Position numbers and translations under genes: made by a program. Under the pieces are notes generated by a model, which saw nothing but the letters and a program-made list of their open reading frames with translations, was not told where the DNA came from and searched no databases. Shown here piece by piece: positions 1,042 to 7,340 of a stretch of DNA of 7,340 nt. Within the stretch, counting starts at the first letter, position 1. Each line of letters starts with the position of its first letter. The stretch is taken from assembly GCA_946491915.1 (NCBI GenBank), contig CAMLYR010000073.1, positions 1 to 7,340 of the forward strand, written 5' to 3'. This DNA is from an uncultured Clostridium sp. (GTDB lineage: Bacteria; Bacillota_A; Clostridia; TANB77; CAG-508).

Positions 1042-4000
1042 CTATAGTCGGTCCTTTAGCTTATTCCTCAAAATATTTGGCGCAATAAGCAACATTACGA
1101 TAATCCGTTTCCACCTACTACTGGTATAAAAATTTTTTCCGATTCCTAAATAGTCAATACTATTAGTTTCAGTGTTTGAAGTTTGAACAATCAAGCGGCT
1201 TTCTTGCGCTACACTATAATTATTCCACCAGCTAGTCATTTCAATTTTACCTTTCCCCGAAAAAATATCGTCCTCAAAATAGCAACAGCTAAAAACATTT
1301 CTATCCATATCAGACGCTCTTTCCATTAAAAATTCAAAGGGAAGAGAAATATCATAATTCCTAAATGTAACTAGTGGCAGTACATCGGCAAATTTGCTCA
1401 AAAAATCTTCGGCAAAATCAGACACACCCAAACTGATAATTTTACTCATTTCTTTTTCAATATAACTCATCTGCTCTTTTTCTAACTTAGGAATTAAATT
1501 ATTATTATGTATATCGTATCCGATACAGGAAGGCTCGCCCTTTGAAAACATAAACTCCCGGATGGCACCAGATATGCACGGTGTTCTATCATAAAAGGTT
1601 TCAACCTTATAACCCAGCTCTGTTTCATTAAGCATAGGCTTATCTTTATTAATATACACATAATATGCATCAATTGGCTTTTCCATAAGAATACTTAGAA
1701 TCTTTTGAGCCGTACCATTATAACCAATATCAAATAGCAAATCCTGTTCATCAATTATATCATTTAATTTTTCCTGAATAAGTTGTTTTTTATTACGCAG
1801 AGATGTAAACAAAGTTTTGTCTTTACATAATATTTTCAAAAATGTATTAAAAGATTCAAAGTTCTTAAAATATGCTTCCGAATCAAAGCCTTCTTTTTTT
1901 AGACGAATTTTAATCTCCTTATTATCTTCCAATCCCAAAAATTGTTTCATAATCATAGCTGGAGTTTTGAAGGTAACAGAATCAAATGAGATATTGTCTT
2001 TTATATATGGAATATCTTCTGGTGAGGTAAAGGCCAAGGGCAGTAAAGCTTTTCTTGATAAATACAAATAATTACTTTCTGGTAAATCCGAAATATACTT
2101 CTTCAAGATATCATATACTACTTTACACTGATAGCCATCTCTCGCAACAAAGTGTATTGTTTTTTTGGACTTATTTCGTTTTACCAAGTCTAAAGTTATT
2201 CCTAATAAGTGCATTCCTAATGCATAATAAGACATATAATATAAATTTGAATTGAAATCTGTATTTTCGTTGAACATATAATACGGATTATCAAAAAATT
2301 TATTTGCTATAACGGAAAGCATGCAGCGAATCCCCCAAAATTCCATCGAAACCTTATGGTCAAAGAAATTGCCGCATGGGCGTAACATATTATAAAATGA
2401 ATTGCCTACATTGTACCCAGAATCTACTAATTTTCCAGTAAAAACATCGATGGCCTTGGGTAAATAAATGCTTTCTATTCCTAGCTCTTTAGGCTTAAGA
2501 TAGTCAGATTGGTAATTATCTCCAACATGTATTAGTGTTTTTTTATCGCATTCTTTAGTCACATCATGATATAAATTGCCAGTCGATTTTGTTTTCTGAG
2601 ATTCTGATGATAAATACAGTTTTTCATAATCATTATATCCATTTGAACTCAAAATAGCGATAATAGTATCTTTATCTAGATACATATCAGATGTCAATAC
2701 TATCTTTTTATTTAAAAATCTTGCTATATTATACAATTCATATCCAAAGTTTCGCCGATAGCAGAATTTGATTTCTAGTTCCTTTTCATATTCCATTAAA
2801 TTTTTTGTATGTGCAGTTGAAATATTATATTCGTTGGAAATTCGTTCATAAATTTCTTTTAAAGTTATTTCTTCTCGACCGATATCATTTATCGCATTTC
2901 TAGCCTCTCGCTCTGCTTCAATTCTAATTTTAGAAAAGTCAACATGCGTCTTTGGGTTTAACTGCTTATACCTATACTCTAAAATTCGAAATAAATCAGA
3001 TGGTTCAAAAAAAGGTCTGCAAATTAGCGTGTCAAATATGTCAAAGCTTACACAATGAATTTTATGATTAATAATCTGCTTTTTTACAACTTCTTCTCTA
3101 TCGGACCATTTTGTGGTTACAGAATAATAATATCCATCTTCCTTTGTCTGCATTTCCAGTTGTTCTATACCTAATGCATGTCTTACCAAATCTTCTAAAT
3201 ATTTGATATCTGCGCTGTCAAATCCTGCCCATTTAATTGCATTTTTCCAGCTACGACCATAATTTTCTTTCCACGCAATATGATTTTTTTCATATTGTTC
3301 ATACACGTTTAATTCTTTTAACACTTGTGTTCTAAAATCAAAAGAAACTTTTAGGTCAGATATATTCTTTTCGAATTTTTTTATATCCTTTGCAATTCCT
3401 GTAGAGGCCGCTTTGCGTTGCACATAGAAATAAGTGTCACAATCTACCTCTGTATATTTTTCTGCCAATAAAAAAAGAGGGGTCGAAAATGCAATATCTT
3501 CTGTCATAATTAAATGTGTATTAATGTTTTTATAAAAATGCTCACACTTTTTCCATAGCTTCATACTATATAATTTTACACATAAAATATGCCAAGAAAA
3601 GTCTACGCCTTCTTGGCGAAAATATTCATCTGCGATAGCTTTTCCGGTCAATGTTATTCTAGGCCTATAATTGATATAATTATAAACATACTTTTCTCCG
3701 ATTCGCTCATCATCCATAATAAACTGAGCTTTTACGATATCTGCTTGCTCCTGCTCCGCTTTAAAAACAAGTGAACGAATGTAATCTATGCCGATATAAT
3801 CATCACTATCGATAAAAGTGATATATTTTCCTTGTGCTATTTTAGCACCCTCCATTCTGGCCCTAAAAAGTCCTAAATTTGAGGGATTATCAACCAACTT
3901 AACTCTAGGGTCATTTTGCTGATAGCGCAATATAATATCTTTTGAATTATCAGGAGATGCATCATTAACTGTTAACACTTCAATATTTGAATACGATTGC

Positions 4001-4095
4001 TGCAAAATACTATCCAGGCAACGATTCAAATATTTGGATGTTCCATATACTGGAACTACAACGCTAACTAGGGGACAGTTATTTTTATTTATCAT
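1042..4095 (-). CDS. GT2 glycosyltransferase fused to a HAD-superfamily domain (COG5610-like)
   Basis: This is a 1017-residue, probably cytosolic protein. Residues about 8-330 are a GT-A fold family 2 glycosyltransferase: VSVVVPVYG near the N-terminus, nucleotide-binding Asn44-Asp45, metal-binding Asp96-Ser-Asp98-Asp99, and an acceptor-side Glu199-Asp200. From about 345 a HAD domain follows: SFDIFDTLI with Asp352 as likely nucleophile, LTSD with Thr468/Ser469 as motif II, and HVGDNYQSD with Asp526 and Asp531 as motif IV. The base at +2 from the nucleophile is Phe354, not the Asp of HAD phosphatases. Residues about 590-950 form a further conserved-looking region (ARDGYQ around Asp653, FDIGYNGT around Asp789) that I associate with this HAD family but cannot assign a function. 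The tail is basic and hydrophobic. I start at the ATG at 4095, which has a GGGAGG site 5 nt upstream; an in-frame ATG at 4140 would add 15 residues but lies inside the preceding gene. Sugar donor and acceptor are unknown. Confidence 0.88.
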   Translation of the reverse strand: MINKNNCPLVSVVVPVYGTSKYLNRCLDSILQQSYSNIEVLTVNDASPDNSKDIILRYQQNDPRVKLVDNPSNLGLFRARMEGAKIAQGKYITFIDSDDYIGIDYIRSLVFKAEQEQADIVKAQFIMDDERIGEKYVYNYINYRPRITLTGKAIADEYFRQEGVDFSWHILCVKLYSMKLWKKCEHFYKNINTHLIMTEDIAFSTPLFLLAEKYTEVDCDTYFYVQRKAASTGIAKDIKKFEKNISDLKVSFDFRTQVLKELNVYEQYEKNHIAWKENYGRSWKNAIKWAGFDSADIKYLEDLVRHALGIEQLEMQTKEDGYYYSVTTKWSDREEVVKKQIINHKIHCVSFDIFDTLICRPFFEPSDLFRILEYRYKQLNPKTHVDFSKIRIEAEREARNAINDIGREEITLKEIYERISNEYNISTAHTKNLMEYEKELEIKFCYRRNFGYELYNIARFLNKKIVLTSDMYLDKDTIIAILSSNGYNDYEKLYLSSESQKTKSTGNLYHDVTKECDKKTLIHVGDNYQSDYLKPKELGIESIYLPKAIDVFTGKLVDSGYNVGNSFYNMLRPCGNFFDHKVSMEFWGIRCMLSVIANKFFDNPYYMFNENTDFNSNLYYMSYYALGMHLLGITLDLVKRNKSKKTIHFVARDGYQCKVVYDILKKYISDLPESNYLYLSRKALLPLAFTSPEDIPYIKDNISFDSVTFKTPAMIMKQFLGLEDNKEIKIRLKKEGFDSEAYFKNFESFNTFLKILCKDKTLFTSLRNKKQLIQEKLNDIIDEQDLLFDIGYNGTAQKILSILMEKPIDAYYVYINKDKPMLNETELGYKVETFYDRTPCISGAIREFMFSKGEPSCIGYDIHNNNLIPKLEKEQMSYIEKEMSKIISLGVSDFAEDFLSKFADVLPLVTFRNYDISLPFEFLMERASDMDRNVFSCCYFEDDIFSGKGKIEMTSWWNNYSVAQESRLIVQTSNTETNSIDYLGIGKNFYTSSRWKRIIVMLLIAPNILRNKLKDRL

Positions 4096-6898
4096 TTTTT
4101 CCTCCCATTTTACATTTAATTTTTTTACAAAAATCGGCAAAAATACGCAGAGGTTTTGTCATACGCCAAAAGGTAGATGATTGTATTTCTTTATATAATC
4201 TTTCATAGTCTACGGCACTGGAATTTGAAGACTTCTCATTTGACTCTAATAGAATTTGAGAAGCAAAATATTGCCTAATAACCTCATAGCCATTACACCA
4301 TACCTTTTGACCTGGTTTGCATATATCATAATGGTGTTTGACAATACAATTGCCATCATGAACATTGATTGTCAGCACATTGGCACTGTAAATTTTTCCG
4401 CCATTTCTTAAATGCTGCGTCTTACCATTTTGATAAAAACCTCCTTCACCCAAAAGAACTCTTAACATCTTTTCCTTCAATAACATTTCCGGAAAATCCT
4501 TATTTTCAAGCAGTTCTGAAGCTTTATATGTCGTCAGAAGTCTTTCGATGAATATACAATTTTTTTCGGCGCCAATAATGCCCGCTTGTACCATATTAGA
4601 TGTTTCAAATGCCAAGAAAAAACTGTCGCACCGAAGTTCATCCAATGGCTTTAGCAGTTCCATGTCGCTATTTAATGCAATACCCCCATAGTTTTTTAAA
4701 GCTTTTAGTCGAAAATACTCGGAAAGTATCGTCCAATCTTGCTGAGAATATGCGTTTTCAAGTATGGGGTTGTCTTTTATATCACAGTTGGATTCATTCC
4801 ATTCAATAATTTTGTAATCTGGTGCATATTTCTTCCATGAAAGATAGCATTGATTAAATGTTTCGGCTGTATCGCCATTTCCAAATTTACAATAATGGAT
4901 GATTTTAGGAATCTCCGGTAACTGTTCAAAATTTATAAACTGCCCATTTTCGACCGCTTTCTGGATATAGGAGTTATGGAGAAAGTTTTTTTTGTTGGAG
5001 TCAAAATATTTTTTACTATAATAGGCAAAATTCTCCAAAAAATTAGTACAAAAGAAGTTAATACTCCAATATACCGCAAAATGAATTTCATTTTCATAAA
5101 GTGGGTTAGATAGATTTAAAATTCTGTCCCATGCGGCGTAACAGTCAAGTAAACGAGAATCGTTATTTTTGATGGAAGTTATAGAGCCTGTTCGTTGTCT
5201 GTAGTTATACAGGCCTTCCCTTACATAATGAATATTTTTCGCATAGCTAAGTAAAATCGGAGTAGTGGCCAGATCCTCATAAAAGCCCTTGGGAAAACTA
5301 ACTTTATTCATTAAGTTTTTATGTATTAATTTTGTACAGGCATTTACTACTCCATATTTGGAAGAATACTTTAGAATTTCAAATCGGTCTACATTTCCTT
5401 CTAAGCTATGTATATATTCTTTTTTCCCGCTATCCCAGATTGCGATATAGTCACACATTACACAATCAGAGTCATTTTTCTGGGCTGCTGCATACATTTT
5501 TTGGAACATTTCGGGCTGAACTGTATCATCAGAGTCAACAAAGCCTATATATTGGCCTCGCGCTTTTCTTATTCCATAGTTTCTTGCTTCACCTAACCCG
5601 CTATTTTTTATAGAAAACGCTCTGATTTTATCAGGATAATGATAAACATAATCTGCGATAATCCGCTCAGAATGATCAGTAGAGCCGTCATTGACAATAA
5701 TAATTTCTAGATTATCATATGTTTGCTGTACCAATGATTCCAAGCACTCTTTTAAATATTTTTCTGTATTATAAACCGGTACTACTACTGAAATATCCAC
5801 GTCTTTATTAGTCATTAAATTTCTGTCAGGAACATAATCAATTTGACTCTTTGAAGTATTATCTGATATCTCGAATAATCGATTGAGTTCTTTTTTTATT
5901 CCTTCATTATTATACTGATAATTTTTTAATTTTTTTCTTTTCTCTGAAATAAGTTTCCTGTCAGAATATATTTTTTGTAGTGTATTGATAATTGAATATA
6001 TGTCATTTTTAACAATCCATCCATATTCATCTGCAAGGATTTCTCTGACTCCACCGGATTCTGTTGCTAGAACAGGAGTACCTAAAGAAAGGCTTTCTGC
6101 AATGACTAGCGCCAATCCCTCATATTCCGATAAAAGCGCAAAAATATCGGCAGCTTTTACAAATGGATATGGGTTTTGACGAAAGCCCCAAAAATGAATA
6201 TTAGTGATGGAGTATTTCAGACATTTCTGCTTGAGAATGTCATATTCTTTTCCTTTGCCCAAAATATGCCATTCTATTTTTGTCCCCTGTTCATTTAATA
6301 TTTTTGCTATATCAATTAGTCGCTGATAGGATTTTTGGGGTTCTAATCTCCCAGAAACAACGATATTTAATTGCGCATCGGAGTGCTTTTCCATTATTTC
6401 GCTATCAATAGGAGCCAGGGATTTTAATCCTATTTCATAAGTATCTAAAATATTATATATAACAATGCATTTGCTTTCTAACTCTGGAAAAACCAGTAAA
6501 AAATTATTTAAGTTATGCTGCGAAACAAATACAATTTTGTCAAAGCACGAAAAAAGTTCTTTTTGCTGTTGAATATCAGCATCGACAATTTCTGCCCATT
6601 TTTTGTAATCGATATGAACCCATTGTATTTTTTTGATTCCTTCTAATGCAGCGACTTCCTCTCTAAAGCAGGAATTCTCAAATGGAACAATTACATATTC
6701 ATATTCCGCATAATTTTTTTCGTTACATATAGTTATCTGACTGGATAAATACTTCTGAGTTTCTTTTAAAATCTCATGTGGGGAATATATAAAAACGCCC
6801 ATTCCCGTTTCGGCCAAATAATTCGCCATTTTAAATGTTGCGAAATGTGCTCCGCCTCTATAATTTATATCGTCCATCACAATTAAAACTTTTCTCAT
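4085..6898 (-). CDS. Tri-modular glycosyltransferase: GT4, GT2 and GT32-like domains
   Basis: This 937-residue protein carries three sugar-transfer modules and no signal peptide or membrane span. Residues 1-345 are a GT-B fold, GT4-type domain: Gly15-Gly16 in the N-terminal loop, GRLEPQK at 183-189 for the donor phosphates, and an EX7E motif at Glu260/Glu268 followed by the SLGTPVLATESGGVREIL segment. Residues 366-590 are a GT-A family 2 domain: ISVVVPVYN from 369, Asp404 in VNDGSTD, Asp455-Ser-Asp457-Asp458, and Glu541-Asp542 as candidate base. Residues 663-860 resemble GT32 (PF04488, 'glycosyltransferase sugar-binding region containing DXD'): IPKIIHYCKFG, SWKKYAPDYKIIEWNE and YGGIALNSDMELLKP, where the usual Asp-X-Asp reads Asn743-Ser-Asp745. 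The end carries WRMTKPLR (911-918), a tail seen on many surface-polysaccharide enzymes. The start has a GAGGAG site 6 nt upstream. It is the first gene of the visible operon. Domain families are secure; linkages and sugars cannot be read, and the third module may be weakened. Confidence 0.88.
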   Translation of the reverse strand: MRKVLIVMDDINYRGGAHFATFKMANYLAETGMGVFIYSPHEILKETQKYLSSQITICNEKNYAEYEYVIVPFENSCFREEVAALEGIKKIQWVHIDYKKWAEIVDADIQQQKELFSCFDKIVFVSQHNLNNFLLVFPELESKCIVIYNILDTYEIGLKSLAPIDSEIMEKHSDAQLNIVVSGRLEPQKSYQRLIDIAKILNEQGTKIEWHILGKGKEYDILKQKCLKYSITNIHFWGFRQNPYPFVKAADIFALLSEYEGLALVIAESLSLGTPVLATESGGVREILADEYGWIVKNDIYSIINTLQKIYSDRKLISEKRKKLKNYQYNNEGIKKELNRLFEISDNTSKSQIDYVPDRNLMTNKDVDISVVVPVYNTEKYLKECLESLVQQTYDNLEIIIVNDGSTDHSERIIADYVYHYPDKIRAFSIKNSGLGEARNYGIRKARGQYIGFVDSDDTVQPEMFQKMYAAAQKNDSDCVMCDYIAIWDSGKKEYIHSLEGNVDRFEILKYSSKYGVVNACTKLIHKNLMNKVSFPKGFYEDLATTPILLSYAKNIHYVREGLYNYRQRTGSITSIKNNDSRLLDCYAAWDRILNLSNPLYENEIHFAVYWSINFFCTNFLENFAYYSKKYFDSNKKNFLHNSYIQKAVENGQFINFEQLPEIPKIIHYCKFGNGDTAETFNQCYLSWKKYAPDYKIIEWNESNCDIKDNPILENAYSQQDWTILSEYFRLKALKNYGGIALNSDMELLKPLDELRCDSFFLAFETSNMVQAGIIGAEKNCIFIERLLTTYKASELLENKDFPEMLLKEKMLRVLLGEGGFYQNGKTQHLRNGGKIYSANVLTINVHDGNCIVKHHYDICKPGQKVWCNGYEVIRQYFASQILLESNEKSSNSSAVDYERLYKEIQSSTFWRMTKPLRIFADFCKKIKCKMGGKNDK
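4101..4106 (-). promoter_or_regulatory. Strong Shine-Dalgarno inside the end of the upstream gene
   Basis: The minus strand reads GGGAGG, then five A, then ATG at 4095. The site lies in the last codons of the tri-modular glycosyltransferase gene, whose TAA is at 4087-4085, so the genes overlap by 11 nt (ATGATAAATAA). The arrangement fixes the start of the GT2-HAD gene and suggests translational coupling. Confidence 0.85.
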
Positions 6899-6904
6899 TT
6901 ATTT

Positions 6905-6910
6905 CTCCTC
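6905..6910 (-). promoter_or_regulatory. Ribosome binding site of the first operon gene
   Basis: GAGGAG on the minus strand, 6 nt before ATG at 6898, fixes the start of the tri-modular glycosyltransferase. Confidence 0.8.
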
Positions 6911-6954
6911 AAACGATATATGCTTTTTTCATTTTATAGTGATGAGATACAACT

Positions 6955-6968
6955 AATCAGCACTGATT
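6955..6968. repeat. Short palindrome at the predicted transcription start
   Basis: AATCAG and CTGATT form a 6-bp dyad separated by CA. It lies just downstream of the proximal candidate -10 (6974-6979), about where transcription would begin. That placement fits an operator or a small 5' hairpin. Dyads this short are common by chance in AT-rich DNA. Confidence 0.3.
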
Positions 6969-6973
6969 TTCGT

Positions 6974-7001
6974 ATTTTATGAGTCTATCAGATTAATTCA
7001 A
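6974..7001 (-). promoter_or_regulatory. Candidate proximal promoter for the glycosyltransferase operon
   Basis: On the minus strand TTGAAT (7001-6996) is followed after 16 nt by TAAAAT (6979-6974). The boxes match the housekeeping consensus at 4/6 and 5/6 positions. Transcription would begin near 6967, giving a leader of roughly 70 nt. It lies between the inverted repeats and the first gene, so it would be unaffected by any inversion. Similar matches arise by chance in AT-rich leaders. Confidence 0.4.
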
Positions 7002-7032
7002 ACTGCGTATTTGTAGGAGGTATTACTTTTAA

Positions 7033-7061
7033 ACACAACAATTTGAAGAAAATTGTTGTGT
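7033..7061. repeat. 12-bp dyad with 5-bp centre: candidate recombinase site or hairpin
   Basis: ACACAACAATTT and AAATTGTTGTGT are perfect reverse complements around GAAGA. Twelve-base arms around a short asymmetric centre resemble a tyrosine-recombinase core site. The right half is part of the inverted repeat shared with 7276-7296. As RNA it would form an AT-rich hairpin; on the minus strand it is followed by TTTAAAAG, a poor terminator. Confidence 0.65.
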
Positions 7062-7062
7062 A
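7042..7062. repeat. Left copy of a 21-bp perfect inverted repeat
   Basis: This stretch is the exact reverse complement of 7276-7296 over 21 bases. The match ends at both borders, but looser similarity resumes further in: 7071-7081 (TAATCTTTACG) against 7268-7277 (CGTAAAATTA), after a gap of about nine bases. An exact 21-base match within 255 bases is unlikely by chance even in AT-rich DNA. Confidence 0.9.
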
Positions 7063-7202
7063 GGATAGCTTAATCTTTACGAAAAGAGGGATATTAGGAG
7101 AAAAAACGACAAATATTTTAGCGAAAAGAAAATAAGCGCATAATAAAGAAGTTTGGTTGCCTGCTTACAAGATATGGTACTGCTTTTTACAGTAAATTCT
7201 TA

Positions 7203-7231
7203 TTGCAGTTTTTTTATGAAACTAATATAAT
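7203..7231 (+). promoter_or_regulatory. Promoter-like sequence inside the inverted repeats, facing away from the operon
   Basis: TTGCAG (7203-7208) and a perfect TATAAT (7226-7231) are separated by the optimal 17 nt, with a T-run between. The -35 box matches the consensus only in its first three bases, so strength rests on the -10 and spacing. Transcription would start near 7238 and run rightward out of the window. I found no comparable minus-strand promoter in the same spacer. Confidence 0.55.
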
Positions 7232-7275
7232 ATATTCTGAGTGGTAAACAGGAACTTGTGACAAAGGCGTAAAAT

Positions 7276-7296
7276 TACACAACAATTTTCTTCAAA
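7276..7296. repeat. Right copy of the 21-bp inverted repeat
   Basis: Exact reverse complement of 7042-7062. Read on the plus strand, it has the same ACACAACAATTT arm and TCTTC centre as the left site, followed by AAACTGTAACCT, a degenerate version of the left site's AAATTGTTGTGT arm. The asymmetric centres are in opposite orientation, the arrangement in which site-specific recombination inverts rather than deletes. Confidence 0.9.
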
Positions 7297-7311
7297 CTGT
7301 AACCTCAAACA

Positions 7312-7340
7312 TAAGTTATCCCTTACACACAATGCTTCAA
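7312..7340 (+). repeat. Possible third, degenerate copy of the repeat, running off the window
   Basis: TAAGTTATCCCTTACACAC followed by AATGCTTCAA resembles the extended left copy read on the minus strand (7073 downward), which runs TAAGCTATCCTACACAAC and then AATTTTCTTCAA. The alignment needs gaps (two extra bases after TATCC, fewer T before CTTCAA). It lies in the same orientation as the copy at 7276-7296. It may be a decayed site or the edge of a further repeat unit. Confidence 0.4.

Follow-up and report, generated by a model that had tools for sequence, protein, structure and literature searches.

Does the short stretch of non-coding DNA that precedes a set of polysaccharide genes in an uncultured Clostridium sp. 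serve as a promoter that can be turned around? The question is raised by 255 bases (7042-7296) whose ends are mirror-image repeats separated by 213 bp, and which lie towards the right-hand end of the 7,340-nucleotide stretch of DNA analysed here in its entirety (the window). The answer developed below is that the slightly wider element at 7033-7305 is probably an invertible promoter, present in its OFF state, in which a recombinase would invert the intervening DNA and a promoter-like sequence within it would drive transcription.

The gene cluster and the repeat in its leader

The window has a G+C content of 32% and carries three genes, all on the minus strand, whose spacing suggests that they form one transcript. 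The first (4085-6898) encodes a 937-aa protein and the second (1042-4092) a 1016-aa protein with an N-terminal GT2 glycosyltransferase domain, while the third (1-1020), encoding a polysaccharide pyruvyl transferase, is truncated by the end of the window. In the 937-aa product three sugar-transferase domains, of GT4, GT2 and DXD type, are joined in a single protein. The start codon assigned to the third gene in the list of open reading frames may be placed too far upstream; its product is also 100% identical, across 91% of the query, to a 491-aa database protein from a contig of 7978 bases, which looks like a longer form of the same pyruvyl transferase gene. Since the genes occupy the minus strand and the first ATG is at 6898, the repeat-bounded segment lies upstream of them, in keeping with the original prediction, which had placed the repeat in the leader of glycosyltransferase genes. 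The inverted repeat begins 143 bp upstream of the cluster, and throughout the 442 bases upstream of the first ATG every reading frame is 38 aa or shorter.

The left arm of the repeat (7042-7062, plus strand; 21 bp, TTTGAAGAAAATTGTTGTGTA) is the reverse complement of the right arm (7276-7296, minus strand), making the latter a perfect inversion of the former, and the pairing reaches 25 bp if one mismatch is allowed (7038-7062 with 7276-7300). The perfect 21-bp inverted repeat around 213 bp that had been claimed for this locus is thus real, and it exceeds everything seen when the window was shuffled 300 times with dinucleotides preserved: scored for perfect inverted repeats with at most 2 kb between the arms, the shuffled sequences had longest repeats of 11-16 bp, with the 16-bp maximum occurring in 7 of the 300. 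These dimensions (21 bp and 213 bp) also fall within the range of invertons, in which repeats measure about 10-30 bp and segments extend over tens to hundreds of bp.

Comparable pairs were sought in 53 sequences, comprising the window and 52 related loci (893,140 bases in total), many of the latter stopping short of the start of the gene cluster. With perfect arms of at least 16 bp, a spacing of 60-1200 bp and simple sequence removed, six pairs passed, one of them being that of the window. The others are three nested pairs in L021 and one each in L036, where the arms consist of A and T plus G only, and L042, where the pair runs to the contig end; all are over 2 kb away from the matched region of their locus. 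The nested repeats of L021 (6834-7286; perfect arms of 18, 22 and 27 bp) constitute a separate observation. Together they make up a palindrome, interrupted and some 450 bp long, that is possibly a mobile or invertible unit; by Pfam, its neighbours are a solute-binding protein gene on one side and a polysaccharide deacetylase gene on the other.

Recombinase-like sites and an internal promoter-like sequence

Sites for tyrosine recombinases take the form of two inverted arms around a short asymmetric core, and a palindrome with an odd centre suits these enzymes better than serine invertases, which act at a 2-bp centre. A feature additional to those originally seen is that the left end of the element (7033-7061) resembles this form in shape: it is a perfect 12-5-12 palindrome, ACACAACAATTT-GAAGA-AAATTGTTGTGT, composed of an outer arm (7033-7044), a core (7045-7049) and an inner arm (7050-7061), and it contains most of the left repeat arm. 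Palindromes with arms of at least 12 and a loop of 3-10 arose in 1 of 200 shuffles. The right end (7277-7305) has a perfect inner arm identical to that of the left (7277-7288) and the left core reversed (TCTTC, 7289-7293), together with a poor outer arm (7294-7305) that agrees at 7/12 positions, a level attained by 3.6% of the 12-mers in the window. The exact 12-base arm is present three times in the window, always within the element. The cores point towards one another, as inversion requires. Overall the ends resemble loxP, FRT and dif in shape, with inverted binding arms and a short asymmetric core, and differ from them in the poor outer arm of the right site. None of the window's three genes encodes a recombinase.

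The segment proposed to invert (7063-7275; 213 bp, 31% G+C) has as its longest touching reading frame one of 38 aa, which leaves the window, and encloses the promoter-like sequence TTGCAG-N17-TATAAT (7203-7231, plus strand). This is the single match to TTG-N20-TATAAT on either strand of the window, where 0.30 would be expected, and at least one such match is also present in 51 of 200 window shuffles. Its -35 hexamer is weak, and because it matches at only 3/6 positions the sequence is absent from a standard promoter scan, which returned two other matches against 2.3 expected by chance. A second promoter-like sequence, GTGACA-N17-AACAAT (7258-7286, plus strand), overlaps the right arm and points in the same direction, and a third, TTGAAT-N16-TAAAAT (6974-7001, minus strand), lies between the segment and the first gene as a possible fixed promoter; both are at chance level. 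The sequence at 7203-7231 is directed away from the genes, so that the sequenced orientation would be OFF. Inversion of the segment by script leaves both 21-bp arms unchanged, as it does for any perfect inverted repeat, and carries the promoter-like match to 7135-7107 on the minus strand, facing the genes.

A mechanism of the following kind may be envisaged. A site-specific recombinase of the tyrosine type, with its gene outside the window, would bind the 12-bp arms of either end and exchange strands within the asymmetric GAAGA core; with the cores in facing orientation, the DNA between them would invert. In the sequenced orientation the putative internal promoter would fire away from the genes (OFF), and after inversion it would point towards them from a place some 210 bp before the first ATG (ON). 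Presumed in this scheme are the inversion, the recombinase with its class, the promoter activity and the phase variation of a surface polysaccharide.

Distribution of the site, the leader and the genes

Searches for the site outside the window bear on whether it is a recurrent feature. The exact 21-mer arm has no occurrence in either genome_contigs or viral_contigs, in a search blind to diverged copies. A 16-base core of the arm was found in 50 stretches of viral_contigs, with one match apiece; in not one of these stretches does an inverted partner, allowing 2 mismatches, lie within 1500 bases, and the matches are accordingly put down to chance. Also absent from viral_contigs is the exact palindrome, whichever 5 bases form its core. 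Among 391 sampled genomes of the class of Hungatella effluvii (G003), the exact paired-arm pattern occurs in none, and the palindrome with up to 2 mismatches occurs in three, at a single place in each (L104, L105 and L106); a control search with the pattern read backwards matched one genome.

No second site with 4 or fewer mismatches was found around these three palindromes, all of which are taken as chance, although some weaker traces speak against this. L104 has a direct site with 5 mismatches about 225 bases away. L105 has a 16-base inverted pair (81%) with members 160 bases apart, which extends into one arm of the palindrome and shares sequence with a terminator-like hairpin, and L106 a 14-base pair (93%) at a spacing of 1002 bases. 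The L105 palindrome itself (1501-1527), CAAAACAATTT-TCTGC-AAATTGTTTTG, is symmetric and near to that of the window, and the verdict of chance is uncertain in this instance because its arms have these two properties. It is located at the 3' end of a reading frame that scores 28.1 bits for Polysacc_synt, against a cut-off of 28.2.

Among 299 genomes sampled from the phylum, the leader DNA matched five, over 25-40 bases each and with E-values from 2.6e-4 to 9.0e-4; a homologous leader was not found in this sample. L109 agrees with the left palindrome at 24/30 positions and lies inside a 521-aa reading frame with no second site nearby, and the match in L107 is confined to the promoter stretch. All five are taken as chance. 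The verdict of chance on the palindrome and leader matches follows from an inspection of L104-L107 and L109, with L108, L110 and L111 having been examined for the site alone. As the searches brought up no relative bearing this site, nothing shows that it is kept or used.

The 937-aa protein gave 459 matches, and among the best 120 of these the top full-length relatives show 47-57% identity; most of the best full-length relatives are taken to be metagenomic. An alignment of 35 relatives (A1), used as the query, retrieved 52 loci from genome_contigs, the best by E-value being L001, a Eubacteriaceae MAG (41%), with short segments of other matched loci reaching up to 46%; the same query retrieved no locus from viral_contigs. 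At a limit of 1e-100, one of 200 genomes from the family of G001 matched, and this was G001 itself. At 1e-130, none of 397 sampled genomes from the family of G003 did so; G003's own match also misses this limit, so that the result means only that the sample contains no closer relative. The lowest E-value was 0.1 among the best 20 of 39 matches to plasmids and 0.2 among the best 20 of 29 matches to phages. The few named matches to the proteins of the second and third genes come from Clostridium, Clostridia, Desulfosporosinus, Lachnospiraceae and Eubacterium. Judged by the records in which the best-scoring relatives occur, the bacterium probably belongs to the Bacillota.

Known switches, rival explanations and biological meaning

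Among documented systems, whose general mechanism is reviewed in PMC7241687, a close likeness in size and layout is offered by Cdi2, the pdcB switch of C. difficile. As PMC9286219 describes it, Cdi2 has imperfect repeats of 19 bp and a span of 174 bp (here, perfect repeats of 21 bp and a span of 255 bp), shows internal promoter activity (against a promoter-like sequence inside the segment here) and is OFF in the reference genome, as the sequence deposited here would be. Its gene lies 840 bp away, against 143 bp for the cluster, and its target is pdcB rather than polysaccharide genes. The same account leaves undecided whether the main role in Cdi2 falls to its internal promoter and gives its recombinase as not yet identified. 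Capsule loci are a known target of invertons, as in the Akkermansia cps1 locus dealt with in PMC13343947, where the repeat motif is given as CGGATT..AATCCG, unlike the repeat of the window. Short inverted repeats, a non-coding segment of promoter size and adjoining polysaccharide genes are shared with the capsule invertons of both Akkermansia cps1 and Bacteroides, inversion being putative in the present element.

The anatomy must also be weighed against explanations in which the segment stays in place. The palindrome at 7033-7061 could be the operator of a dimeric regulator or a structure in the leader RNA, and the second arm could be an additional site for binding or one strand of a long-range RNA stem. 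We regard this as rather unlikely, despite a strong local hairpin predicted in the minus-strand transcript at 7015-7070 (-13.8 kcal/mol, z -6.6, equalled in 0 of 200 shuffles) and the pairing of the 21-bp arms with each other when the fold of the entire leader is predicted. That fold is itself unexceptional (z -1.46, equalled in 9 of 100 shuffles), the right site has a weak predicted fold (z -1.0, equalled in 28 of 200 shuffles), and Rfam yields no family match at E up to 1; moreover, the repeat spans the inner arm and the non-palindromic core, which would be superfluous for a plain operator. Insertion of a miniature inverted-repeat transposable element (MITE) into the leader would also explain why a short non-coding stretch ends in inverted repeats of 21-25 bp, yet of 13 placements of the boundary, 12 give a target-site duplication of 0 and one gives 2 bp. 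MITEs are usually multi-copy, and the absence of the exact arm from genome_contigs and viral_contigs, which diverged copies would escape, adds to the reasons for holding this origin to be very improbable.

Two further possibilities accept inversion and differ as to its effect. The segment might act through RNA, after transcription start, under a fixed promoter outside it, in the manner ascribed to the cwpV and flg switches of C. difficile in PMC9286219. These documented precedents, and the chance that DNA past 7340, outside the window, contains a promoter, lend this idea some plausibility; against it are the promoter-like sequence inside the segment and the absence of intrinsic-terminator-like sites, none being returned by a scan of 6800-7340 or by a simple script applied to 6900-7340 in both orientations, and it seems to us improbable. 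There is also a slight chance that the switch is two-sided: the promoter would serve genes to the right of 7340 or, once inverted, the polysaccharide genes, so that two surface programmes would alternate, under a recombinase, perhaps undescribed, that reads the arm AAATTGTTGTGT. Opposed recombinase-like sites, an asymmetric core and an outward-directed promoter-like sequence together fit an invertible promoter better than they do the alternatives, as judged from the DNA itself. The earlier reading of the locus as such a promoter thereby gains in its structural part, through the anatomy of the sites and the promoter-like sequence found inside, while inversion, the recombinase and promoter activity keep the inferential standing that they had.

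Switching by DNA inversion is itself a well-known bacterial phenomenon, to which the present element, if real, adds one case. The 12-5-12 sequence provides a precise handle for finding the recombinase and further switches in the same strain. If the segment does flip, the polysaccharide would vary in phase, probably at the cell surface, and this would affect the encounters of the organism with phage and with its host.
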